A stretch of DNA of 64,000 nucleotides. Origin: Bacteroidota bacterium (GTDB taxonomy: Bacteria; Bacteroidota; Bacteroidia; Cytophagales; Cyclobacteriaceae). Each line of letters begins with the position of its first letter. The stretch's first letter is position 1. Of the stretch, positions 19,473-34,810 are shown in pieces. The stretch is from contig JAFDYU010000015.1 in assembly GCA_018267285.1 (NCBI GenBank), positions 62,001-126,000 of the forward strand, written 5' to 3'. The translations under genes and the position numbers were made by a program. The notes under the pieces are model-generated. The model worked only from the letters and a program-made list of their open reading frames with translations, did not search any database and was not told the origin of the DNA.

Positions 19473-21080
19473 TCAAAAACTTATTACCAAAGGTCCTACT
19501 TCCCAGTTTGCTCGTATAGGGAAAGCAGTTTTGTTTTCACTGTTTTTGTACAACAGTACTTTTTCTGGGAGTTGTTTAAGATTAAAACTCCCAACATCCC
19601 ATCTTCGGTTGTTATTTTTGTCAATAATTACCAACAATTTATATTCCGCAGGCTGAAGGTAAGAAAAGGTATATTTCTTCTGATTGGTGAATGCTGCAAC
19701 TTTCTTTCCTTTAGAGTCTATCAGTTGCACCTCAAAATTCTTTTCGTCTGTGTTCACCTCAACGCTTAGTATCCCTGTCTCTTTTATTTTAGGTATGTTA
19801 ATTTTCAAATCCGTTGCTTTGGTTGAGTCTTTGTTCACCGTAACGAAAGCACCCTTACCAAAAAGTACTACCGGATTTAAAGTCTCCTCGTTTACAGCGA
19901 TATTAAGTTTGGTTTGTATTTGTATAGTCCTGTTTAGTGTATCGAAAGCAATATCATTCTCCTTTATTGGCTGAAATTGTGTCGAATCGATCTGGATATA
20001 CATGCTATCGTAATTAGCCGATGCAAATAGCGTATTCGTAGTGGCCGACATTGTTATAGTTTTAGTGGGCACATCAAAAGTATATTGCCATTGAGACATT
20101 TTGAATTTATCGTTTACGATTTTAGAATCTGTAAACTTTATATAAACCGCAGTATCTATTCGATTAGCTACACTATCACTTGCAATTACATTCACCTTAA
20201 GCGAATCAGAGCCCTTTATTTCTTTGTAGACAATTAATTCCGAATGATCAGTGCCATACGTATATATAATTGGAGTTTCCGTTCGAAGGAAAACACTGTC
20301 AACTTGCTTGTTAAATCGTATGGTAGAAATTGTGCTCGTATTGCGCACACTCGTTAATTTTAAAGGTCGGGCATCAACGCGTATCAATTCAATTTTGATA
20401 GAATCATTTTTTCCGGGCAAAAAAACAGTATCAACCTTGTATCCGAAACGCTCCGATTGGCTGTCTATTCTTGAGTTTTTATTTTTGTCATCAAATGCAT
20501 AAACGAAATACTTTCCTGCTTTTAGGTTTTGAATGGTGAATATTCCCTGCTTATTTGTTTTAGTAAAAAATACAGGTCGATGTTTAAAAATATCGAATGT
20601 GTCTGATTGGTAAATCGCAACAGTTATTTTTGTAGGTATCCCTTCTTTAAATAGCTCTGTTACAGAACCCGATAGCTTTAACGAGTCTATCGTTGGCCCT
20701 GTACTGAAAGCGAGATGTAAGTCTTCAGTGGGGTTCCCCTCGTTTATGTCCTGAATGCCTTCGCGAAACGCAACACTATACGTGGTTGTATCCTGCCATT
20801 TAGTTGGTGGCGTAATAATAAGTTTGTTGCGTTTTACTGAAAACTTTAGCCTCCCCGCAAGTGCTGGAGTTATTACTATTTCGTCTTCGGCATTTTTAAG
20901 CTTAATAAATTCGCTAAAGGTGAGTTCTATATCTCTTCCTTTAAAATTTTTCTGACCGTTGAAAGGTGTAGATGCTACAAGTGTTGGGGCTTCTGTGTCT
21001 TTCGGCCCGCCCGAAGGTTGTGATACTCGGGCACACTGCCACAAGATTAGCGCAAGAAAGAAAAATTTTATTTTTTTCAC
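19473..21080 (-). CDS. Ig-like (Big_5) domain lipoprotein
   Basis: 535 residues. Lipoprotein signal, cysteine C16 in LILWQCARVSQ, followed by PSGGPKDTEAPTL, the usual start of Bacteroidota Big_5 lipoproteins. The first domain (about 30-130) is Ig-like: STPFNGQKNF, ELTFSEFI, LIITPPTKWQDTTTYSVAF. A carboxypeptidase-regulatory-like fold follows (GIFTIQNLKAGKYFVYAFDD). The C-terminal half repeats the beta-sandwich style (YLQPAEYKLLVIID). Start is GTG 21080, overlapping the methyltransferase stop by four bases (GTGA). An outer-membrane lipoprotein of unknown role. Confidence 0.85.
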   Translation of the reverse strand: MKKIKFFFLALILWQCARVSQPSGGPKDTEAPTLVASTPFNGQKNFKGRDIELTFSEFIKLKNAEDEIVITPALAGRLKFSVKRNKLIITPPTKWQDTTTYSVAFREGIQDINEGNPTEDLHLAFSTGPTIDSLKLSGSVTELFKEGIPTKITVAIYQSDTFDIFKHRPVFFTKTNKQGIFTIQNLKAGKYFVYAFDDKNKNSRIDSQSERFGYKVDTVFLPGKNDSIKIELIRVDARPLKLTSVRNTSTISTIRFNKQVDSVFLRTETPIIYTYGTDHSELIVYKEIKGSDSLKVNVIASDSVANRIDTAVYIKFTDSKIVNDKFKMSQWQYTFDVPTKTITMSATTNTLFASANYDSMYIQIDSTQFQPIKENDIAFDTLNRTIQIQTKLNIAVNEETLNPVVLFGKGAFVTVNKDSTKATDLKINIPKIKETGILSVEVNTDEKNFEVQLIDSKGKKVAAFTNQKKYTFSYLQPAEYKLLVIIDKNNNRRWDVGSFNLKQLPEKVLLYKNSENKTAFPIRANWEVGPLVISF

Positions 21081-21958
21081 TTCGAAGCGATGTAGATTAA
21101 GCTGGAATAATTCATCGTTTTTTTTGCTCGCAAATTGGATGCCAGCCCAATACGGAGAGCCGAAAGTAGCTTCAATACTGCACTCCTCTTTTTATTTCTA
21201 TACGATTCACTTAACATCGAGACATAGTACGAATCAAATGGTAAAGGCAACATTTTTTTCAACTTAAACCCGTTATTCAAAAGTAGCCGTTCCATGGCTT
21301 GTTTGTTGAAGTGCCACAAATGTCGAGGTACATCATAACCCGCCCAGTGTTCTTGGTAATGTTTTGCATCGAACGATTCCAAGTTTGGAACCGCAAGTAT
21401 GATAACCCCTGATTCCTTTAAACGATCATTAAGTTGTCGCAATATCTCGTTGAGATCGTGAAGGTGTTCTAGTACGTGCCAAAGCGTTACAACATCAACA
21501 CTTCGTTTGACTATTGATAGTTCTTCGTAGATTTCTATTTCTGTTAACTCGCTTGCTTTTTTATTTGCTTGCGGAGATGGTTCTACACCTATAATCTCCC
21601 AACCGCTTTTTTTCATTTTATGTAGAAAATTGCCGGTGCCACAACCAAAATCAAGTAAGGTTTTACCCTGGGAAAAACTTTCCACTATTCTTCTCTTTCG
21701 CTTTAAAGCAAAACTTCTTACCAATAAGTACATTTTATCAAAAAGTGTTTGCCGGCCGCCTGTGTGCGATATGTACGATTCCGATAGATAGTATTTTCCT
21801 ATCGTAGATTTATCGGGTCTTGGATCTGTAAAAGTAAAACCACAGGTAGCACATTTTTTCAGATCAAATTTTTCACCGCTTGTCGTGTAGTCGGTGCAAG
21901 TTATGAAGGGGTGAAATCCCGTTGAAGAACAAACCGGGCAAGAAGGAAGGTTAATCAT
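21077..21958 (-). CDS. SAM-dependent methyltransferase with N-terminal zinc ribbon
   Basis: 293 residues. The N-terminal ribbon has cysteines C7/C10 (SCPVC) and C36/C39 (KCATCGF). A class I methyltransferase core follows: motif I LLDFGCGTGNF, then VVTLWHVLEHLHD and ESGVIILAVPN. This is the Methyltransf_23 type found in sugar and surface-polymer modification, but the substrate cannot be read from sequence. It overlaps mnmG by ATGA and the Ig-like gene by GTGA, so it is translationally coupled on both sides. Confidence 0.85.
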   Translation of the reverse strand: MINLPSCPVCSSTGFHPFITCTDYTTSGEKFDLKKCATCGFTFTDPRPDKSTIGKYYLSESYISHTGGRQTLFDKMYLLVRSFALKRKRRIVESFSQGKTLLDFGCGTGNFLHKMKKSGWEIIGVEPSPQANKKASELTEIEIYEELSIVKRSVDVVTLWHVLEHLHDLNEILRQLNDRLKESGVIILAVPNLESFDAKHYQEHWAGYDVPRHLWHFNKQAMERLLLNNGFKLKKMLPLPFDSYYVSMLSESYRNKKRSAVLKLLSALRIGLASNLRAKKTMNYSSLIYIASK

Positions 21959-23817
21959 TTTCCAAGATATACGCTTAAAACGGAAACATCGGCAGGTGAT
22001 ACACCGCTTATTCTCGACATTTGTCCAATCGTTTCCGGTTTTATTTTTTTCAACTTTTCGCGCGCTTCAGAAGATAACGCTTTCACCCGGTCGTAGTCGA
22101 AATCGGGTTTTATTTTAAACCCATCGAGACTCTCGATTTTCTCTGCCAATTTTTGCTCACGTTCAATATAAGGATCGTATTTCACAAGTATTTCTACTTG
22201 TTCTAAAATCTCTTGATTGTATTTGCTAAAGAGTTCCTCTATTTGAGTATCAAATTTTACTAGTTTCTGAATACTAATGGATGGTCGTTTCAACAGATTG
22301 TATAAACTAGTTTTTTCTGCAATAGGTGAAGTTTCTGCACCAAGTAATGCCGTATTAATTTGATCCGGTGATGCCTTGAAGTTTTTCAGTTCTTGAATTG
22401 CCAAAGTTATTTTCTCTTTTTTTGATAGAACGTTCGTTAAACGTTCTTTACTCGCCAGTCCGATTTTATATCCAAGTTCGGTTAACCTCAGGTCTGCATT
22501 ATCTTGACGCAACAAAATTCTGTACTCTGCCCTGCTGGTAAACATGCGATAAGGTTCCTGCGTGCCTTTGTTAACCAGGTCGTCTATAAGCACGCCAATG
22601 TACGCCTCCGATCTTTTCAAAATAAGCGGATCCTTGTCGTGAACTTTATTGTGCGCATTTATGCCGGCCATTAACCCTTGACAGGCTGCTTCTTCATATC
22701 CGGTTGTACCGTTTATTTGACCTGCAAAATACAGATTATCAATTAGTTGCGTCTCTAAAGTAGTTTTTAATTGTGTGGGCGGGAAGAAGTCGTATTCAAT
22801 GGCATAACCTGGCCTGAACATCTTTACATTTTCAAATCCACTAATCTTTTTAAGCGCGTTGTATTGAACTTCTTCCGGCAATGATGTTGAGAACCCATTC
22901 ACGTAAACCTCAATAGTGTTCCATCCTTCCGGCTCAACAAAAATTTGATGTCGTTCTCGATCGGCAAACCTATTTATTTTATCTTCTATGGAAGGACAAT
23001 ATCTTGGGCCTAAGCCCTTAATTCTGCCCTGAAACATAGGCGAAAGACTAAAACCTTTTTCAAGTTCTTTGTGCACGCTGTCGTTGGTATAAGTTATCCA
23101 ACAACTCATCTGTTTTTCTGGTAACGTAGTATTTGTGAATGAGAATTTTCCGGTAGGGTAATCTCCCGGTTGTTCTTCCATAGCCTCATAGTTTAACGAG
23201 CGCCCATCGACACGTGGTGGTGTTCCGGTTTTCATCCTTCCCGACTCAAAACCTAATTGAATCAGTTGTTCGGTTATTCCCGTTGCTGCCTTTTCTGCAG
23301 TTCGGCCTCCACCAAAATTCTTTTCTCCTATATGGATTTTACCATTCAAGAACGTTCCGTTAGTAAGTACAACGGCCTTGCATTTTATTTCAAGGCCAAG
23401 TGAAGTTTTCACCCCCACAACTCGCTTGTCTTTTACAATTAGAGACGACACCATCTCTTGCCAGAAATCAAGATTTTTTGTTTTCTCTAAGGCAAGCCTC
23501 CATTCTTCGGCAAATCTGGCTCTATCGTTCTGGGTTCGGGGGCTCCACATTGCCGGACCTTTCGATCGGTTCAGCATACGGAACTGAATCATTGATTTGT
23601 CTGAAATGATTCCAGAATATCCGCCCATAGCATCGATCTCTCGAACAATCTGCCCCTTCGCAACGCCACCCATTGCCGGATTGCACGACATTTGGCCGAT
23701 GGTCTGCATGTTCATGGTTATGAGTAAAACCCTTGAGCCCATGTTAGCAGCAGCAGCAGCAGATTCGCACCCGGCATGCCCGGCACCAACAACAATTACA
23801 TCATATTCTGGAAACAT
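21955..23817 (-). CDS. mnmG: MnmG (GidA), tRNA U34 modification FAD enzyme
   Basis: 620 residues, normal length. Together with MnmE it installs carboxymethylaminomethyl on U34 of tRNAs. The FAD-binding GAGHAGCES starts at residue 11; also MSCNPAMGGVAKGQIVREIDAMGG, GTFLNGKIHIGE, and in the C-terminal half YRMFTSRAEYRILLRQDNAD, all diagnostic. The end carries the helical MnmE-binding domain with ISGVSPADVSVL. It is preceded by two parS-like sites (23830-23845 and 23872-23887). In many bacteria gidA lies close to oriC. Confidence 0.97.
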   Translation of the reverse strand: MFPEYDVIVVGAGHAGCESAAAAANMGSRVLLITMNMQTIGQMSCNPAMGGVAKGQIVREIDAMGGYSGIISDKSMIQFRMLNRSKGPAMWSPRTQNDRARFAEEWRLALEKTKNLDFWQEMVSSLIVKDKRVVGVKTSLGLEIKCKAVVLTNGTFLNGKIHIGEKNFGGGRTAEKAATGITEQLIQLGFESGRMKTGTPPRVDGRSLNYEAMEEQPGDYPTGKFSFTNTTLPEKQMSCWITYTNDSVHKELEKGFSLSPMFQGRIKGLGPRYCPSIEDKINRFADRERHQIFVEPEGWNTIEVYVNGFSTSLPEEVQYNALKKISGFENVKMFRPGYAIEYDFFPPTQLKTTLETQLIDNLYFAGQINGTTGYEEAACQGLMAGINAHNKVHDKDPLILKRSEAYIGVLIDDLVNKGTQEPYRMFTSRAEYRILLRQDNADLRLTELGYKIGLASKERLTNVLSKKEKITLAIQELKNFKASPDQINTALLGAETSPIAEKTSLYNLLKRPSISIQKLVKFDTQIEELFSKYNQEILEQVEILVKYDPYIEREQKLAEKIESLDGFKIKPDFDYDRVKALSSEAREKLKKIKPETIGQMSRISGVSPADVSVLSVYLGK

Positions 23818-23829
23818 AAATCTTTACGT

Positions 23830-23845
23830 TGTTTCACGTGGAACA
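23830..23845. other. parS: parS centromere site, exact consensus
   Basis: Plus strand TGTTTCACGTGGAACA; its complement TGTTCCACGTGAAACA agrees with the ParB-binding consensus TGTTnCACGTGAAACA at all 16 positions. It lies 12 bases upstream of the mnmG start codon. ParB would load here for chromosome segregation. Confidence 0.8.
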
Positions 23846-23871
23846 AGTTGATCGCGCGGGTCTATTATTCG

Positions 23872-23887
23872 TGTTTCACGTGAAACT
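23872..23887. other. parS: second parS-type site inside the end of ybeY
   Basis: The core is the perfect 14-bp palindrome GTTTCACGTGAAAC. As TGTTTCACGTGAAACT it matches 15 of 16 consensus positions. It overlaps the last codons and stop of ybeY (23876-23878) and lies 42 bp, centre to centre, from the first site, about four helical turns. Confidence 0.75.
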
Positions 23888-24304
23888 TTTGCGCAAAGAT
23901 AAGTAGGTATCTTCCTTTTTTCGCATTAGGGCAGCATCCTTGGTTTTTTTGTCCTTGTACCCACATAAATGAAGGATTCCATGTATAATAACCCTGTGGA
24001 GCTCGGTCTCCTCCTTAATACCGTATTTTTTTGAGTTTTCCACCACCCTTTCAATGCTGATATAGATTTCAGCCGAAATTTCCCCGGTGTTATCAGAATT
24101 GTCGAAAGTTATGATGTCTGTTAGGGTGTTGTGGTTAAGAAATTCTTTGTTGAGGTTAAGAAGGTATTCGTCAGAGCAGAAAATGTAATTTACTTCTGCC
24201 AATCTCTTGCCTTCTCGTTTGGCAGATGCCGTTATCCACTTCTTCAGTTTTAACGGGTTCTTGACTTTAAAATCGACTTCTTCATAAAAAAATCGAATCG
24301 GCAT
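23876..24304 (-). CDS. ybeY: YbeY endoribonuclease / rRNA maturation factor
   Basis: 142 residues. A UPF0054 metalloprotein needed for 16S rRNA 3' maturation and ribosome quality control. The metal motif is seen as H108-G-x-L-H112-L-x-G-Y, but the third canonical histidine (GYDH) is replaced: residues 117-118 are Lys-Asp. ITFDNS and EISAEIYIS precede it as expected. The variant appears common in this phylum, with Asp118 a possible ligand. The gene starts two bases after the stop of the HATPase gene, and its own stop lies within a parS-type palindrome. Confidence 0.9.
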   Translation of the reverse strand: MPIRFFYEEVDFKVKNPLKLKKWITASAKREGKRLAEVNYIFCSDEYLLNLNKEFLNHNTLTDIITFDNSDNTGEISAEIYISIERVVENSKKYGIKEETELHRVIIHGILHLCGYKDKKTKDAALMRKKEDTYLSLRKSFT

Positions 24305-24306
24305 TC

Positions 24307-24720
24307 CTATAGGTTCATATAGAAGCTCAACTCCACCACTTTGCCATTTTCTTTGAAGTCGACTTCATCAGACAGGTGCTTCATCAAAAAAATACCCCGG
24401 CCCCCCGGTTTTGAAATGTTTTCCGGTGAGGTTGGATCGGGCAGCTGCTGGAAATTGAACCCATTGCCTTCGTCCTGAACCCTGAACTTGATTAAACCAT
24501 CTTGCAAGGAAAGTGATAATGTCACGTTCTTAGAAGAATTGTCTTTGTTGCCGTGCTTGATTGCATTGTTAACCGCCTCGGTAACTGCAATCATTATGTT
24601 TCCATAGATATCATCATTGAGTAGGTATTTCTCTTTTGCGTTGTCTATAAAACTCTCAATGATTCTGATGTTTTCAGATAAGGAGGGTATTTCTATACTG
24701 ATGTTTTTAACTCCGGGCAC
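24307..24720 (-). CDS. RsbW/SpoIIAB-like HATPase (anti-sigma type)
   Basis: 137 residues from GTG 24720. GHKL ATPase: N-box EAVNNAIKHGN near residue 50, G1-like VQDEGNGFNF, G2 GGRGIFLMKHL, and no histidine-phosphotransfer domain. Such stand-alone kinases phosphorylate STAS anti-anti-sigma proteins or act as small regulatory ATPases; no STAS partner is seen in the window. In Bacteroidota it is regularly beside ybeY and DUF4175 genes. It starts one base after the DUF4175 stop codon. Confidence 0.82.
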   Translation of the reverse strand: MPGVKNISIEIPSLSENIRIIESFIDNAKEKYLLNDDIYGNIMIAVTEAVNNAIKHGNKDNSSKNVTLSLSLQDGLIKFRVQDEGNGFNFQQLPDPTSPENISKPGGRGIFLMKHLSDEVDFKENGKVVELSFYMNL

Positions 24721-24721
24721 G

Positions 24722-27700
24722 TTAGTTTATTCGTTTAAAGTATTCGTTAACCTCTTTTTTATAGTATGGAAACAGCTTCGGTGGAAGCGATTTTAACAAT
24801 TCTACTTCTTTTTCTTTTAATCTTAAATACTGCTCAAAACTTGGTGGGATATCTTTTTGGTAATCTTTTGCCGTCTGCCCTTTTCTTTCCTGATCAAGGT
24901 CTTGCTCGCGCATAGATTTTTCTGCTTCCAATAATCTCGTGAGTATTTCATTTTGCCTTCGTATCGTCTGTTCTGTGATCTGCTTGTTAACCAAATCCAT
25001 TTCGGTTTGTTCCATTTTTCCCGGCAAATCTCCACCAATCTCTTTACCTCCTTCTCTTTTTAACTTTTCCTGCATTTCTTTAAGAGCATTCCTTATCCGC
25101 TCTTGTTCGGCAGCAAGTTTTGCCAGGTCTTCAGAGTACAACCTTCCTGCTTTTTGCCCGGCTTTTAATTTTTCAATTTGCCTATTTATTTCTTGCTGCA
25201 TCTTTCCCAGGTTAGGGAGCTTTTTTCCGTTTTGTTTCGACCCCTTTCCTTTGCCGGGCATGGCATTGGCCATGGCATTCATCATATTTTCAAAATGATC
25301 GTTCAACATCAATGCAAGGTTATTGATGTTGGTCATGGAGCGTTGCATTTCGGCTGAAGCGTTGCTTTTCTTCCTGTCTTTTATATGTTCAAGTGCTTTG
25401 TTAAGGTGGCTGTTAAGCTCATTGATTTCCCGGGTTGCAATGTTACTTAAGAAAGGGTCTTTTTTAGAAAGCTGTAACAAGCTGTCTGCCAACACTTTAG
25501 AATCATTTTTTAAATTAACCTGCCCCTCTGATACTTGAATATATTTTGGATCCGATTGCTGCACAGTATTAAAATCCTTCATCAAATTTTCCTGATCGAA
25601 TGATAGCTTAATCAAACCATGAACGATTTGCCGTAAGCTTTCCAAATTTTGCGTATCGATTTCCATTTGCATGGAACTCTGCATTTGTTTTAAGCCCTTT
25701 TGTATGTCCTTCATTTTACTAACGGCATTCTTTTGATGTTGAATCGACTTCGAGGGCATGTTCTGCTCCAGCGATTCTTTACTCTGTTGTTCGTTGTTTT
25801 CAAGTTGTTCTAAATCTTCTTTTTCCGGCTTAGGTTGTTCTTCGCCAATTTCGTCTCCGAGTTTGTTGAGCTCTTCTAAAGATTTTTCAAACTTTTTTAA
25901 TTCGTCCTGAAGTTTTTGCTGGTCTTCGGCCAGATCTTTATTTGATTTACTGCCTTCATTGTCTTTGCTGTTGTTATCCTTTTCCGAAGACTTTTCTGTG
26001 TTATTCAGTAACTGCTCTTGTTTTTCTTGTTGCTTGCTCATCTCGCTGATGGCTTGCTCGAGTTTGTATTCGTACTGCAGTTGTTTAAACAGCTCCAGCG
26101 CACGCTCCAATTCTTGCTCAAGGTTGATTTGCTTTTGATTCATCTTTTCAAGGAGGCGTTGAATCTTTTGAGAGTCAACATTTTCTTTCAGCAGTTTTTC
26201 AAGCTCATTAAACAAGGCTTTCGTCTCCTCGTCCAGCAGTTGATCCATCAGCTTTTGGATTTGCTCCGATTTTTCTTTGATCTTCTCGTTTTCCTGGGAG
26301 AAGGTTTCTTTTTGCCGTTCGAGCAATCGGTTCTCTTGCTGAAAGTCTTTAATGTTTTGATCTAATTTCTTTTTTTGCTCGACCAAATCATTCAAAAGTT
26401 TTTTGTCTTGCCAGTCGAGATTGTTTTTCGATCTCAACTTTTGTTCGGCCTCATTGATGGAGCGTTTCAGCTCTTTAGCTTTTTCAACCCCGTTATCAAT
26501 TTTATTTTGGGTAAGATTTTGCTGTTCCGCAACTGTGGTTTTCAATTGAGCCTCTGTTGGTAAAGAAAAAGAATAACTAGCCGAACGTGTAGATTTTCTT
26601 CCATTAACACCATCGTTATCCCAAACCTCAAAATAATAGTTTAACCGATCTCCCGGTTTAAGATGCAGCGAATCGATCGACCAAGAATAAAAATACCTTT
26701 GCGCTGCGGCCGTTGTTACGGGTATTTTAATTGAACTGGTTGGGTTGCTATTTATTTGATAGATCAAATTCAAATTGCTGATGCCATAATCATCTTTGAT
26801 TTCGCCACCCAACAAAATTGATTTGTACAAGACAGAGTCTTGCAACGATTCAACTATAATTTGAGGATGTTGGTCTTTAATAATGTCTATAGAAAAAGAA
26901 ATTTTTTCTTTGCCGTAGCCTGTTTCGTTTTTTAGGTGAATGGAATATTGCTCATTGGTTTTAAATGTGCGGTTGTATTCAAATAATTGATTATCAACCT
27001 GTTTCATGATTATTTGCTCTTGTGCGGATATGAATGCAATGACCGCGCTTTCGGTATGCTCCGCTTTCACATCCCATTTAATTTTTGTGCCTTCAGGCAC
27101 GGCTATATTCCCATCATTCGTAATTATTGCTTTGGGTTTTCCGGTATAAAAAGGAAATTCAGATTCTATTTTTAGTTCGGTCAGCCCCGGTCTGTTCGCA
27201 AGAGTTATTTCATAGGGAGCTGAAAAAAAACCAGCGGCTTCAATTTGAAACCGCAGCGGCTGCTGAAGTTTTTCAAACAGATATTGAAAATTTCCATCAG
27301 CAAGATTTTCCAACTTTAGCTTTTGCGTTCCGGAAATTAAATAAGCCGATTGCGGCAACGAGTTGCCACTCATTTTTACATTCAAATTGAAATCTTCATT
27401 GAAGAAAGCAACTAAATTTTTGTTGGTTACACTAAAGAGAAAGGGAGCTTCGGGTGAAAATTCCTGATTGAAATTTACAATTCGTTTGGTGCTCTTTGTG
27501 AAAATTCCACTGTTGATAAATGCAAGCGCAACAATCAATACCGTAGGAGTAATTAAATAACGTAAATATTTTTTGTTAGCCTTGAGGTCAACGGCCTGTT
27601 CGAACGAAATATTTTCAAGTTGTTTTGATTTCTGAGCAACGCTTGCCTCTGCCAGCGTGCCTTTATCTTTTGAGGAAAGCTGAATAACGTTAAGAAGCTT

Positions 27701-28018
27701 ATCTCCAATAGTTGGAAAATGTGCCCCAATAATTTTAGCGCTCTCCTCTTCGTTAAGTCCTTTACCGTACCACCACCATGTTAAGGGTTTTTTGAAAAAA
27801 TGGATAATGAGGAAGATTAAAGCAGAAATAAACACGGCTAAAACAAAAAAACGGGAGGTGCGGCTTAACCAAAAAAAGTATTCGATTAAACTAACCGAAA
27901 GGAAATACCCCAACAGTATTGCGGGAACAAGGATGCTGCCCCGAACCAGATAATTTTTGTAATACTTTCGCTTAAAAAAAGCGATTTTTTTTACGATGCC
28001 TTTTGCCTCCTCTTCCAT
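24722..28018 (-). CDS. DUF4175-type membrane protein with long coiled coil
   Basis: 1098 residues from ATG 28018 (a TTG 30 bases earlier is possible). Two N-terminal helices (about 25-75) and a third near 155-175, then a beta-rich region to ~470 with YFEVWDNDGVNG. A very long charged coiled coil follows (about 480-800, rich in Gln, Glu, Lys), and a helical C-terminal part with MPGKGKGSKQNGKKLP. This is the Bacteroidota DUF4175 layout; function is unknown. The topology places the large beta/coiled-coil part in the periplasm. It is in one run with the HATPase and ybeY. Confidence 0.8.
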   Translation of the reverse strand: MEEEAKGIVKKIAFFKRKYYKNYLVRGSILVPAILLGYFLSVSLIEYFFWLSRTSRFFVLAVFISALIFLIIHFFKKPLTWWWYGKGLNEEESAKIIGAHFPTIGDKLLNVIQLSSKDKGTLAEASVAQKSKQLENISFEQAVDLKANKKYLRYLITPTVLIVALAFINSGIFTKSTKRIVNFNQEFSPEAPFLFSVTNKNLVAFFNEDFNLNVKMSGNSLPQSAYLISGTQKLKLENLADGNFQYLFEKLQQPLRFQIEAAGFFSAPYEITLANRPGLTELKIESEFPFYTGKPKAIITNDGNIAVPEGTKIKWDVKAEHTESAVIAFISAQEQIIMKQVDNQLFEYNRTFKTNEQYSIHLKNETGYGKEKISFSIDIIKDQHPQIIVESLQDSVLYKSILLGGEIKDDYGISNLNLIYQINSNPTSSIKIPVTTAAAQRYFYSWSIDSLHLKPGDRLNYYFEVWDNDGVNGRKSTRSASYSFSLPTEAQLKTTVAEQQNLTQNKIDNGVEKAKELKRSINEAEQKLRSKNNLDWQDKKLLNDLVEQKKKLDQNIKDFQQENRLLERQKETFSQENEKIKEKSEQIQKLMDQLLDEETKALFNELEKLLKENVDSQKIQRLLEKMNQKQINLEQELERALELFKQLQYEYKLEQAISEMSKQQEKQEQLLNNTEKSSEKDNNSKDNEGSKSNKDLAEDQQKLQDELKKFEKSLEELNKLGDEIGEEQPKPEKEDLEQLENNEQQSKESLEQNMPSKSIQHQKNAVSKMKDIQKGLKQMQSSMQMEIDTQNLESLRQIVHGLIKLSFDQENLMKDFNTVQQSDPKYIQVSEGQVNLKNDSKVLADSLLQLSKKDPFLSNIATREINELNSHLNKALEHIKDRKKSNASAEMQRSMTNINNLALMLNDHFENMMNAMANAMPGKGKGSKQNGKKLPNLGKMQQEINRQIEKLKAGQKAGRLYSEDLAKLAAEQERIRNALKEMQEKLKREGGKEIGGDLPGKMEQTEMDLVNKQITEQTIRRQNEILTRLLEAEKSMREQDLDQERKGQTAKDYQKDIPPSFEQYLRLKEKEVELLKSLPPKLFPYYKKEVNEYFKRIN

Positions 28019-31221: not shown

Positions 31222-31479
31222 ATGATTACCCTGAAAGATTTTCAAAGCGCATCGTTTGAAAAGAAGTGCGATTGGGTTACCGGCTACTCCAATTTTTTGT
31301 CGACAAGAAGACTAGGCGATGCAAAAGTTTACCTCTACCACGCGGGCGAGTTTTTTATTGAAGTGTACTACTCGCCTACGTACAAAAAAGTGTTGATGAT
31401 CAATGCCTTCAGCAACATTTCGAGTTTGGATCCTTATCTAGACTCAATCTCTCTCTATGATTTAGGAATCAACCTGTGA
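31222..31479 (+). CDS. small conserved hypothetical protein
   Basis: 85 residues, no signal peptide or membrane helix. Mixed alpha/beta look: MITLKDFQSASFEKKCDW at the start, then VYLYHAGEFFIEVYYSP and KKVLMINAF. The composition is that of a real soluble protein. It converges with mfd, overlapping its 3' end by 11 bases. Function unknown. Confidence 0.6.
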   Translation: MITLKDFQSASFEKKCDWVTGYSNFLSTRRLGDAKVYLYHAGEFFIEVYYSPTYKKVLMINAFSNISSLDPYLDSISLYDLGINL

Positions 31480-34400
31480 TTTGATTCAGCACCTGAAGGC
31501 CGCGCTCAACGGATACGATTTTTTCGATCGTTAAAATTAATTTGCCCGAAGCATCTTTCATGCGGCAAGTTTTAGAATGCTGTTGAACAAATGCCAGGAT
31601 TTTTCCAAAAGTAGCAGACTTAAAATAGTCTTCGTTTCCCGATACAAAATGGATTTTCATCTTTTCGTTTTTGAGGCTGATTTTTTCGAAGCCCAAAATT
31701 TCACCTGCCCAGCGGAGCCGCACGGAATGAATAAGCTGTTGTACAGACTCCGGCATGGTACCAAAGCGGTCGGTTAGCGAGCTGATAAACTTCTCCAGGT
31801 CTGCTTCGGATTTGATGTTGTCAAGCATTGAATACAGTTGCAGCCGCTCGGTTGTGCTGTTTACATAATCATCCGGGATAAGAATTTCCAAATCGGTTTC
31901 GATCACACAATCAGGAACAATAAGTTTTGCTTTTTCGGCAAGTTCTTCTGAGAATAAATCTTTAAACTCTGTTTCTTTTAGTTCTTGAATGGCATCGTCT
32001 AAAATTTTGTGGTAGGTGTCAAAACCCAGATCGGTGATAAAACCACTTTGTTCGGCACCCAATAAATTTCCGGCACCGCGAATATCAAGATCGCGCATGG
32101 CCACTTTAAAGCCATCGCCTAGTTCGGAAAACTCTTCTAATGCGGCCAACCGTTTCCGTGAATCGGAAGAAAGCACAGAACTTGGCGGGGTGAGGAGGTA
32201 GCAATACGCTTTTTTGTTGGATCGGCCTACACGCCCGCGCATCTGGTGCAGATCGCTCAGGCCAAATAAATGTGCGTTGTTGATGATGATGGTATTGGCG
32301 TTCGGAATATCCAAGCCCGATTCAATGATGTTGGTTGAAACGAGCACATCGTATTCGCCTTCGATAAATTTGATCATCACTTTTTCTAACCGGTCGCCAT
32401 CCATTTGCCCGTGGGCAATGCCAATGCGCGAATCGGGTACAAGTTTAAAAATCAGGTTTGCAACCTGCTCGATATCGCTCACTCGGTTATGAACAAAAAA
32501 TACCTGACCGTTTCGTTGCAGTTCATGGCTTACCGCATCTCTGATTTTGGCCTCTTCAAAAACATGAAGTTCGGTAGTTACAGGCTGTCGGTTGGGTGGA
32601 GGAGTTGAAATAATACTTAAGTCGCGCGCACCCATTAACGAAAAATGAAGTGTGCGGGGTATGGGCGTTGCCGTTAGCGTCAACACATCAACGTTTACCT
32701 TTAATTCTTTCAGGCGGTCTTTTGTTTTCACGCCAAACTTTTGCTCCTCGTCAACAACCAATAAACCTAAATTTTTAAACTCAACATCTTTGCTAACCAC
32801 CCGGTGCGTGCCGATGATAATGTTGGTTGTTCCTTCTTTTACAGAAGAGAGGGTTTGTTTGATTTCTTTATCGGATTTAAAGCGCGAAACATATTCCACT
32901 TTTATGGGGAAGCTTGCGAGACGTTCTGAAAACGTGCGATGGTGCTGCATCGCTAAAATGGTAGTAGGCACGAGCACCGCCACTTGCTTGCCTTCGGTGG
33001 CTGCTTTGAAGGCAGCACGGATGGCCACTTCGGTTTTTCCAAAACCAACATCGCCACAAATCAACCGGTCCATGGGGTGAGGTTGCTGCATATCGTGTTT
33101 TACATCGTCAGTGGCCTTGGCTTGATCGGGCGTGTCTTCGTAGATAAAAGATGTTTCCAGTTCAGCTTGAAGAAAACTATCTTGAGCAAACGCATAACCG
33201 GGAGCTTGCTTACGTTTGGCGTAAAGATCGATCAGCTCTTTGGCGATGTCTTTTACTTTCTTTTTTACTTTAGCCTTCTTGCTTTCCCACTCACCGGAAC
33301 CGAGTTTGCTGATGGCAGGAGGTGTACCCTCTTTGCCGGAATATTTTGAGATTTTGTGCAGCGCGTGGATGCTTACGTACAGCAAATCGTCATCGCGAAA
33401 GACCAGACGGATGGCCTCTTGTTCGCGGCCGTTAACATCTTTTTTTTCGAGGCCGGCAAATTTGCCGATGCCGTAATCGATATGCGTAACAAAATCGCCC
33501 GGCTGCAAGGCTTGTAACTCCCGAAATGTTAGAGCTTTTGATTTCGAAAACTTTTCTTTGGTTTTGTACCTATGGAAACGTTCGAAAATCTGGTGATCGG
33601 TATAACAAACAATTTTCGATTGAAAATCGATAAAGCCCTGACGCAATGAAAAATCCAGCGTTTGAAATGTTAATTCGGGATGGATTTCTTCAAAGATACC
33701 CCGCAGGCGTTCGGTTTGTTTTTGCTGGTCCGTTGCAATAAAATTAGCGAAACCATTTTGCTGATGTTCGAGAAGGTTTGCCGCGAGCAGTTCAAAATTT
33801 TTGCTGAAAGACGGTTGGGCCGAAGAATTAAAATCAAACGTTTTAGAAGGAGGTAAATAAAAACGCTGTCCAAATTCAATGCAGGTACGTTTTTCTAAAT
33901 GACTTTTGAAACTCTCGGCATTTTCAAATAGCTGTTGAGGCTCTAACGAGATGGACGTTCCGCTTTCGCGAAGGATTTTATCAAAACTTTGGCAGGCTTT
34001 TTCAAAACTTTTCTGAATGGCATCGCAGGTGAGGCCCTTATCCTTGATCCATATTTTGGTATGATCCCCTATAAATTCAAAAACAGATTGCCGTTCTTCC
34101 TGCACCAGTCGTGTTTGCACGTTGGGCATCAGGCTCACTTTATCGAGGACATCCACCGACAGTTGTGACCCCGGATCGAACTTGCGGATGCTGTCCACCT
34201 CATCGCCAAACAATTCGATCCGGTGCGGAAGCTCATGCGCAAACGAGAACACGTCAATAATTCCTCCGCGCACCGCAAACTGGCCGGCCTCGTACACAAA
34301 ATCGGTCTTTTCAAAATCGTAGGTGTGCAAAAATTCTTCTAAAAAATTTCGATCAAGTTTTTCTCCTTTCTGGATCAAGAAAGTATTCGATGCCAGCGAT

Positions 34401-34810
34401 TTTTTATTGATGACTTTTTCAGACAACGCTTCCGGATAGCTTACAATGATGTTCCCATCGGGATGGTTGCCGATGCGGCTCAACACTTCGGCACGCATCA
34501 GTACGTTTGCATTTTCTACCTCATCGTATTCGTACGGGCGTTTGTACGACATTGGAAAAAATAAAACTTCTGTGCGTCCCAACAGATTTTGCAGATCGTT
34601 TAAAAAATAAGCAGCTTCCTCCCGATCGTGCAAGATGATAAAATGGTTTGCCCTCGTGCCTTTGCAAACGGCCGCAAACAGTACTGCGTCAAGACTGCCG
34701 TGTGCGTTTTTTAAGTGGAGTGTGCTTCGATCGGACGTACGAATTCCTTCGGCTAAAGTTTGAACCCAACTGTCCGTGCGGTAAAGAGAAACCAAGTCGT
34801 GCGCCTTCAA
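31469..34810 (-). CDS. mfd: Mfd transcription-repair coupling factor
   Basis: 1113 residues. Removes RNA polymerase stalled at lesions and recruits UvrA. Domains in order: UvrB-like N-terminal part (about 1-330, with SYKRPYEYDEVENANVLMR), the RNA polymerase interaction domain with FVTHIDYGIGKFAGLEKK, the helicase with Walker A GDVGFGKTEVA and DEEQ box VVDEEQKFG, MRGRVGRS (motif VI), and the C-terminal TRCF domain. The start is TTG 34810: no nearer ATG fits, the protein then begins as Mfd usually does, and a promoter-like element ends 17 bases upstream. Confidence 0.95.
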   Translation of the reverse strand: MKAHDLVSLYRTDSWVQTLAEGIRTSDRSTLHLKNAHGSLDAVLFAAVCKGTRANHFIILHDREEAAYFLNDLQNLLGRTEVLFFPMSYKRPYEYDEVENANVLMRAEVLSRIGNHPDGNIIVSYPEALSEKVINKKSLASNTFLIQKGEKLDRNFLEEFLHTYDFEKTDFVYEAGQFAVRGGIIDVFSFAHELPHRIELFGDEVDSIRKFDPGSQLSVDVLDKVSLMPNVQTRLVQEERQSVFEFIGDHTKIWIKDKGLTCDAIQKSFEKACQSFDKILRESGTSISLEPQQLFENAESFKSHLEKRTCIEFGQRFYLPPSKTFDFNSSAQPSFSKNFELLAANLLEHQQNGFANFIATDQQKQTERLRGIFEEIHPELTFQTLDFSLRQGFIDFQSKIVCYTDHQIFERFHRYKTKEKFSKSKALTFRELQALQPGDFVTHIDYGIGKFAGLEKKDVNGREQEAIRLVFRDDDLLYVSIHALHKISKYSGKEGTPPAISKLGSGEWESKKAKVKKKVKDIAKELIDLYAKRKQAPGYAFAQDSFLQAELETSFIYEDTPDQAKATDDVKHDMQQPHPMDRLICGDVGFGKTEVAIRAAFKAATEGKQVAVLVPTTILAMQHHRTFSERLASFPIKVEYVSRFKSDKEIKQTLSSVKEGTTNIIIGTHRVVSKDVEFKNLGLLVVDEEQKFGVKTKDRLKELKVNVDVLTLTATPIPRTLHFSLMGARDLSIISTPPPNRQPVTTELHVFEEAKIRDAVSHELQRNGQVFFVHNRVSDIEQVANLIFKLVPDSRIGIAHGQMDGDRLEKVMIKFIEGEYDVLVSTNIIESGLDIPNANTIIINNAHLFGLSDLHQMRGRVGRSNKKAYCYLLTPPSSVLSSDSRKRLAALEEFSELGDGFKVAMRDLDIRGAGNLLGAEQSGFITDLGFDTYHKILDDAIQELKETEFKDLFSEELAEKAKLIVPDCVIETDLEILIPDDYVNSTTERLQLYSMLDNIKSEADLEKFISSLTDRFGTMPESVQQLIHSVRLRWAGEILGFEKISLKNEKMKIHFVSGNEDYFKSATFGKILAFVQQHSKTCRMKDASGKLILTIEKIVSVERGLQVLNQITG

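Follow-up and report, generated by a model that had tools for sequence, protein, structure and literature searches.

The window analysed here, a 64,000-nucleotide stretch of a Cyclobacteriaceae genome, carries between mnmG and ybeY two 16-bp palindromes that are predicted to constitute the chromosomal centromere (a parS cluster), positioned near the replication origin though neither dnaA nor parAB lies nearby; we put the probability of this reading at roughly nine in ten. The two sites are very probably a genuine, origin-proximal parS pair, and in this lineage parS appears to have stayed beside mnmG as dnaA and parAB changed position. The evidence comprises the sites themselves, their rarity, their conservation beside mnmG, the recognition residues of the ParB encoded by the genome and the agreement with the skew-inferred origins of relatives. 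The relevant features are:

23830-23845, no strand: parS site 1, 16 of 16 positions matching the consensus, lying 13 to 28 bases ahead of the mnmG start codon, with at least one equivalent beside mnmG across the phylum
23872-23887, no strand: parS site 2, 15 of 16 positions matching the consensus, containing the ybeY stop codon (TGA 23876-23878, - strand), with stop-overlapping sites in relatives too
23876..24304, - strand: ybeY, rRNA maturation RNase (NCBIfam TIGR00043, 93.1 bits, cut-off 45)
21955..23817, - strand: mnmG (gidA), tRNA-modifying enzyme and conserved neighbor of the parS sites (NCBIfam TIGR00136, 852 bits, cut-off 525)

Sequence and rarity of the two palindromes

The original prediction of two parS-type sites with 16/16 and 15/16 matches between mnmG and ybeY is borne out at the above positions. 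Site 1 reads TGTTTCACGTGGAACA on the + strand and TGTTCCACGTGAAACA on the - strand, agreeing with the consensus TGTTnCACGTGAAACA throughout, and site 2, TGTTTCACGTGAAACT, departs from it at a single position; both fit the description of the 16-bp palindrome TGTTTCACGTGAAACA or a close variant. They lie 42 bp apart from start to start, between two genes that are both transcribed leftward, with a gap of 12 bases separating site 1 from the mnmG start at 23817. No tRNA was detected within the window.

Scanning the window with up to three mismatches recovered one further match, with 3 mismatches. Across the 3.33-Mb genome the two sites are the sole places with 0-1 mismatch, indicating few clustered sites rather than a spread round the chromosome; the search for one-mismatch variants that had been proposed to expose scattered sites of equal quality thus recovered none. 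A further 10 places appear at 2 mismatches, and these are best regarded as background, since the total of 12 at up to 2 mismatches compares with 21 for the reversed control pattern. The reversed control also has 2 places at up to one mismatch in this genome, and composition predicts 0.6 one-mismatch and 0.014 exact matches, so that a lone one-mismatch site means little. In view of these control and composition counts, the case rests on pairing and conservation and not on the bare number of matches. Pairs matching the strict core and lying 24-54 bp apart occur in 278 of 390 genomes of the family, with none for the reversed pattern, and in 56 of 395 genomes of the class (some family members included), with 1 for the reversed pattern.

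Conservation beside mnmG and the alternatives it bears upon

The nearest named relatives by MnmG are metagenome-assembled genomes of Cytophagales/Cyclobacteriaceae, at 81% identity, which points to a member of the Bacteroidota, probably of the Cyclobacteriaceae. A site with at most one mismatch is present in 57 of 60 genomes of the family, representing 59 genera. One of the genomes lacking a strict match (G044) shows the pair between YbeY and MnmG when any base is allowed at the outermost positions, and in 2 of the 60 (G024 and G048) no strict site was found. Among the family loci recovered by the pattern only (L015-L043, n=29), 28 adjoin mnmG and have ybeY upstream, and in all 28 the sites near mnmG lie upstream of it; the 29th (L025) is a single site elsewhere, the other sites of the same genome being outside the sample.

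To avoid the circularity of loci found by the pattern, further loci were chosen by MnmG alone. The phylum set (n=89) combined the 30 best-scoring loci of 147 genomes (our own included) with 59 loci that cover the genera left over, one genus contributing two of them; MnmG had no match in a 148th genome of the phylum. A site within 250 bp of mnmG was found in 81/89 of these loci at up to 2 mismatches and in 73/89 at up to 1, the locus of the window being included in these counts. In a second, named set the corresponding values were 74/80 and 65/80, and the two sets share no locus, with identical sequence round the mnmG start as the criterion. Named relatives whose mnmG loci contain sites include Ohtaekwangia and Chryseolinea. 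When both sets are combined, 138 of the 169 loci possess such a site at up to one mismatch; placing 250-bp windows at random in these loci, 500 times over, gave 2.6 loci with a site on average and never more than 7. The link to mnmG is not universal, with no site within 250 bp in 8/89 phylum loci (L079, L084, L094, L114, L119, L123, L150 and L157) and 6/80 named loci. In three of the former (L119, L123 and L157) sites are located 357-603 bp away from mnmG. Strict sites occur at genes other than mnmG in G072, G096, G123 and G168, the latter three at unrelated genes, and no strict site was found in G150. Within the phylum set the sites are only upstream of mnmG in 34 loci, only downstream in 18, on both sides in 29 and absent in 8. 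In these comparisons mnmG, and not ybeY, is the constant partner of parS.

Several individual loci merit separate mention. In L087-L089, L091, L093, L098, L099, L106, L109, L113 and others, mnmG is flanked by parS sites, the first immediately ahead of its start and the second immediately behind its stop. The pair of G072 (L336:1501-1560) falls where a MurQ-like gene meets an mfd-like one; the mfd of the window (31469-34810) lies 7.6 kb from its parS pair. G131 possesses, besides a two-mismatch site at mnmG, an exact site (L161:6333) about 25 kb away from that gene; the 12-kb stretch that contains it also holds dciA and a RecF/SMC-like gene. In a metagenome-assembled genome that bears the name Bifidobacterium breve (L230), mnmG is Cytophagales-like and accompanied by parS sites, so that the label or the binning looks wrong.

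The distribution around mnmG bears on the possibility that the sites are mainly an operator for mnmG, used by ParB or by another CACGTG-binding protein. The short distance of site 1 from the mnmG start codon and the exclusively upstream placement in the pattern-found family loci would both suit such a role, but in other families the sites are restricted to the downstream side of mnmG (the 18/89 phylum loci above), and their sequence is that of a ParB site for which the ParB of the genome has matching residues. We accordingly consider a primarily regulatory role very improbable.

An equally slim chance attaches to the palindromes acting as RNA in the ybeY-mnmG interval, whether as a hairpin, a terminator or an attenuator; the two could also pair with one another. 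The transcript of this stretch does fold better than shuffled versions (z = -3.63), as any palindrome pair would. On the mnmG-sense strand, however, the pair-breaking C-A combination at positions 5 and 12 of the site is no rarer than the U-G wobble, with 81 versus 51 over all loci, 80 versus 49 over distinct loci and 30 versus 28 in the phylum set, these being counts of sites and not of independent events, with a bias that the opposite strand would reverse. A paired RNA would keep G-U and not be broken by C-A, a pattern not seen here; a C-A count no lower than that of U-G is what is expected if the double strand is recognised. Downstream-only sites and those on both sides of mnmG (29/89 for the latter) similarly speak against an element placed between the two genes, and no Rfam match was obtained in 20000-28000. 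With neither the C-A/U-G counts nor Rfam in its favor, the RNA reading was rejected.

Site 2 also overlaps a coding region. The 3' end of ybeY (24304 to 23876 on the - strand) reads AAA AGT TTC ACG TGA, with the stop codon inside site 2, and the initial proposal that a coding end overlaps a parS site is correct. The overlap also recurs: 108 family and named loci were examined, in 20 of which ybeY was not found. The remaining 88 divide into 16 with a site reaching into the ybeY stop, 9 with a site entirely within ybeY and 63 in which site and gene are separate. As in the window, the TGA is part of the site in 5 of the 16 overlapping loci (L029, L164, L170, L171 and L206); the other 11 share only an outer base or two. 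The overlap of stop and site is a recurrent compaction and not a unique feature.

The cognate ParB and proximity to the origin

The genome encodes one ParB, with parA directly upstream, on contig C10; DnaA is on contig C3 and the window on contig C6. In Caulobacter numbering, assigned from the motif and equal spacing, this ParB possesses Q162, G170, K171, R173, N178, G201 and R204, with an N at contact position 172, where Caulobacter has S172, and a K at position 184. Among solved chains it matches Spo0J best. R173, G201, N178 and R204 make up the parS-specific pattern described in PMC7383237, and the genome thus encodes, next to ParA, a ParB with parS-type recognition residues, albeit with the N in place of S172. 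In 15 relatives the R173/G201 combination was likewise observed at 13 of the 16 ParB loci, the remaining 3 having given no reading. According to the same specificity study, R173 and G201 go with parS binding, and Q173 and R201 with the site of Noc. The Noc system of Firmicutes, with its NBS sites, is comparable in that Noc is a relative of ParB and NBS a similar palindrome, but NBS departs from parS at two of its bases (PMC7383237) and the present ParB has R173/G201 and not the Q173/R201 of Noc. Similarly, the ParB scores 232 bits against the NCBIfam Noc model, below its cut-off of 315.

By analogy with established ParABS biology, the single ParB, encoded with ParA on another contig, would bind each 16-bp palindrome as a dimer and, with CTP, close into a clamp that slides onto the adjoining DNA. 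ParA would then move the loaded region, among the first DNA to be replicated, toward the daughter cells, and SMC-ScpAB may be loaded at the sites too. ParB loading and ParA-driven segregation belong to this established biology (reviewed in PMC7333895), as does CTP-dependent clamp sliding. An ScpA is present in the genome (contig C16, 33717-34376); in contrast, no known condensin was found in the two gut Bacteroidetes included in a Hi-C study (PMC10197239).

In many other bacteria mnmG (gidA) and parAB are found together near the origin. A C-terminus that, by eye, we take to be YidC-like lies upstream of parA-parB at L013:2899-3282, recalling the yidC-mnmG-parAB order that occurs in other bacteria.

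The position of the origin was approached through a two-state fit to the GC skew of codon third positions (GC3) in 20 evenly spaced stretches of 20 kb in each of 4 complete relatives, out of 15 complete genomes, which places the origin to within some 2.5% of the chromosome on either side. The interval inferred for the origin contains parS in three of them, at 0.3% (G036), 0.7% (G012) and 1.6% (G193) of the chromosome from its midpoint; in the fourth (G030), where the skew is weak (36% of variance), parS falls just outside, 3.7% from the midpoint. The corresponding distances of dnaA are 14.0% in G036, 44.7% in G012, 42.3% in G193 and 16.7% in G030. In G012 (L289-L308) and G193 (L309-L328) this distance of 42-45% from the origin puts dnaA within or close to the terminus inferred from the skew. 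Among the 15 complete genomes, mnmG/parS is at least 13% of the chromosome away from dnaA in 13 and at most 0.6% in 2, and its distance from parB ranges from 7.7 to 44.4%.

The genome of the window itself is in 25 contigs and its origin is placed mostly from these relatives. On its own contig the best change point of the skew (third-position skew corrected for gene strand, plain GC skew being too noisy) is at 89-91 kb, 3-5 kb from parS at 85.86 kb; this is a weak step, reached by 13/500 permutations at the parS position and 36/500 at the best place. Across the 208 kb of this contig, DnaA boxes formed no cluster, near the sites or elsewhere, with 2 one-mismatch boxes at most in any 600 bp; oriC is not placed to the base. 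The suggestion that the locus is origin-proximal is consequently supported by the skew of the four relatives (inside the interval in 3/4 and just outside in the 4th) and weakly by the local change on its own contig. That dnaA and parAB are absent from the window, a point the original prediction had noted, fits the clade as a whole, given the separation of mnmG/parS from dnaA in 13/15 complete genomes. The mapping of skew and dnaA, put forward at the outset as a check, places the skew origin of the four relatives at or near mnmG-parS.

The remoteness of dnaA and parB from mnmG-parS in most complete relatives examined could alternatively suggest that the sites are vestigial, left over from an ancestral origin region and no longer bound by ParB in the species of the window. 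An unselected 16-bp palindrome would not survive while MnmG drops to 46-69% identity, and in the family pairs, among the matches listed, the sites are kept while the spacer between them varies freely; we hold this to be the least probable of the alternatives, at no more than a few chances in a hundred.

As a predicted centromere, the pair closely resembles the chromosomal parS of the ParABS systems of B. subtilis, Caulobacter and P. aeruginosa, with the same 16-bp palindrome, few clustered copies, an origin-proximal position and a matching ParB and ParA. It differs from chromosomal parS elsewhere in that it adjoins mnmG with parAB, and usually dnaA, far off, and in having two sites 42 bp apart with one over a coding end. 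In the Hi-C study (PMC10197239) the origins of 12 gut bacteria, including two Bacteroidetes, are marked by parS clusters and not always by dnaA; the gut Bacteroidetes clusters, placed there by Hi-C and GC skew, share with the present pair the marking of an origin that is not always at dnaA. The main text of that study mentions none of mnmG, gidA and ybeY. Among the titles and abstract openings searched, no description was found of a link between parS and mnmG in Bacteroidota or of phased parS spacing. The element is hence of a known kind (parS), in a clade-wide arrangement with mnmG for which the literature searched, covered to that extent, yielded no earlier description. A parS cluster beside mnmG would offer a simple origin landmark in a phylum where dnaA guides poorly, and would aid origin calling, the estimation of growth rates from read coverage and the choice of a genome start point. 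It also poses the question of what keeps parS next to mnmG when dnaA and parAB change place, dnaA being near the opposite side of the chromosome in two of the sampled genomes.

Spacing of the paired sites

A spacing of 42 bp corresponds to 4.0 helical turns, and the original prediction had accordingly set the two sites on the same face of the helix. The arithmetic is right, but the spacings of relatives cluster elsewhere, near 25, 37, 46 and 56 bp, with 42 mostly in a trough, and the significance of a shared helical face was rejected on this ground.

The clustering itself, with clusters about one helical turn from each other, is suggestive of a periodicity, and only that. At a period of 10.5 bp R is 0.405 in 28 genera of the family (jitter P = 0.013), 0.47 in the 50 named loci with pairs, out of 73 after removal of near-duplicates (reached in 0 of 4000 jitters), and 0.33 in 30 other genera (P = 0.034). 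Helical phasing is taken as a lead only, since the jitter null takes no account of shared descent, the best period is loosely defined (8.5 to 11.5 across subsets) and the pairs of the 390 family genomes are the first 75 among the matches listed. A more far-reaching model, in which the centromere of Bacteroidota is anchored to mnmG and not to dnaA/parAB and the spacing of tandem parS sites (roughly 25, 36, 46, 57 bp) keeps neighboring ParB dimers at a constant helical offset of about 0.4-0.5 turn, as if side-by-side ParB clamps had to face different sides of the DNA, is offered as a tentative idea with perhaps one chance in four of being right. In all subsets the mean phase at 10.5 bp falls at 3-5 bp, close to half a turn. 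In the well-sampled genus g61 a spacing of 42 bp sits at the edge of a 43-47 cluster and not in a gap.
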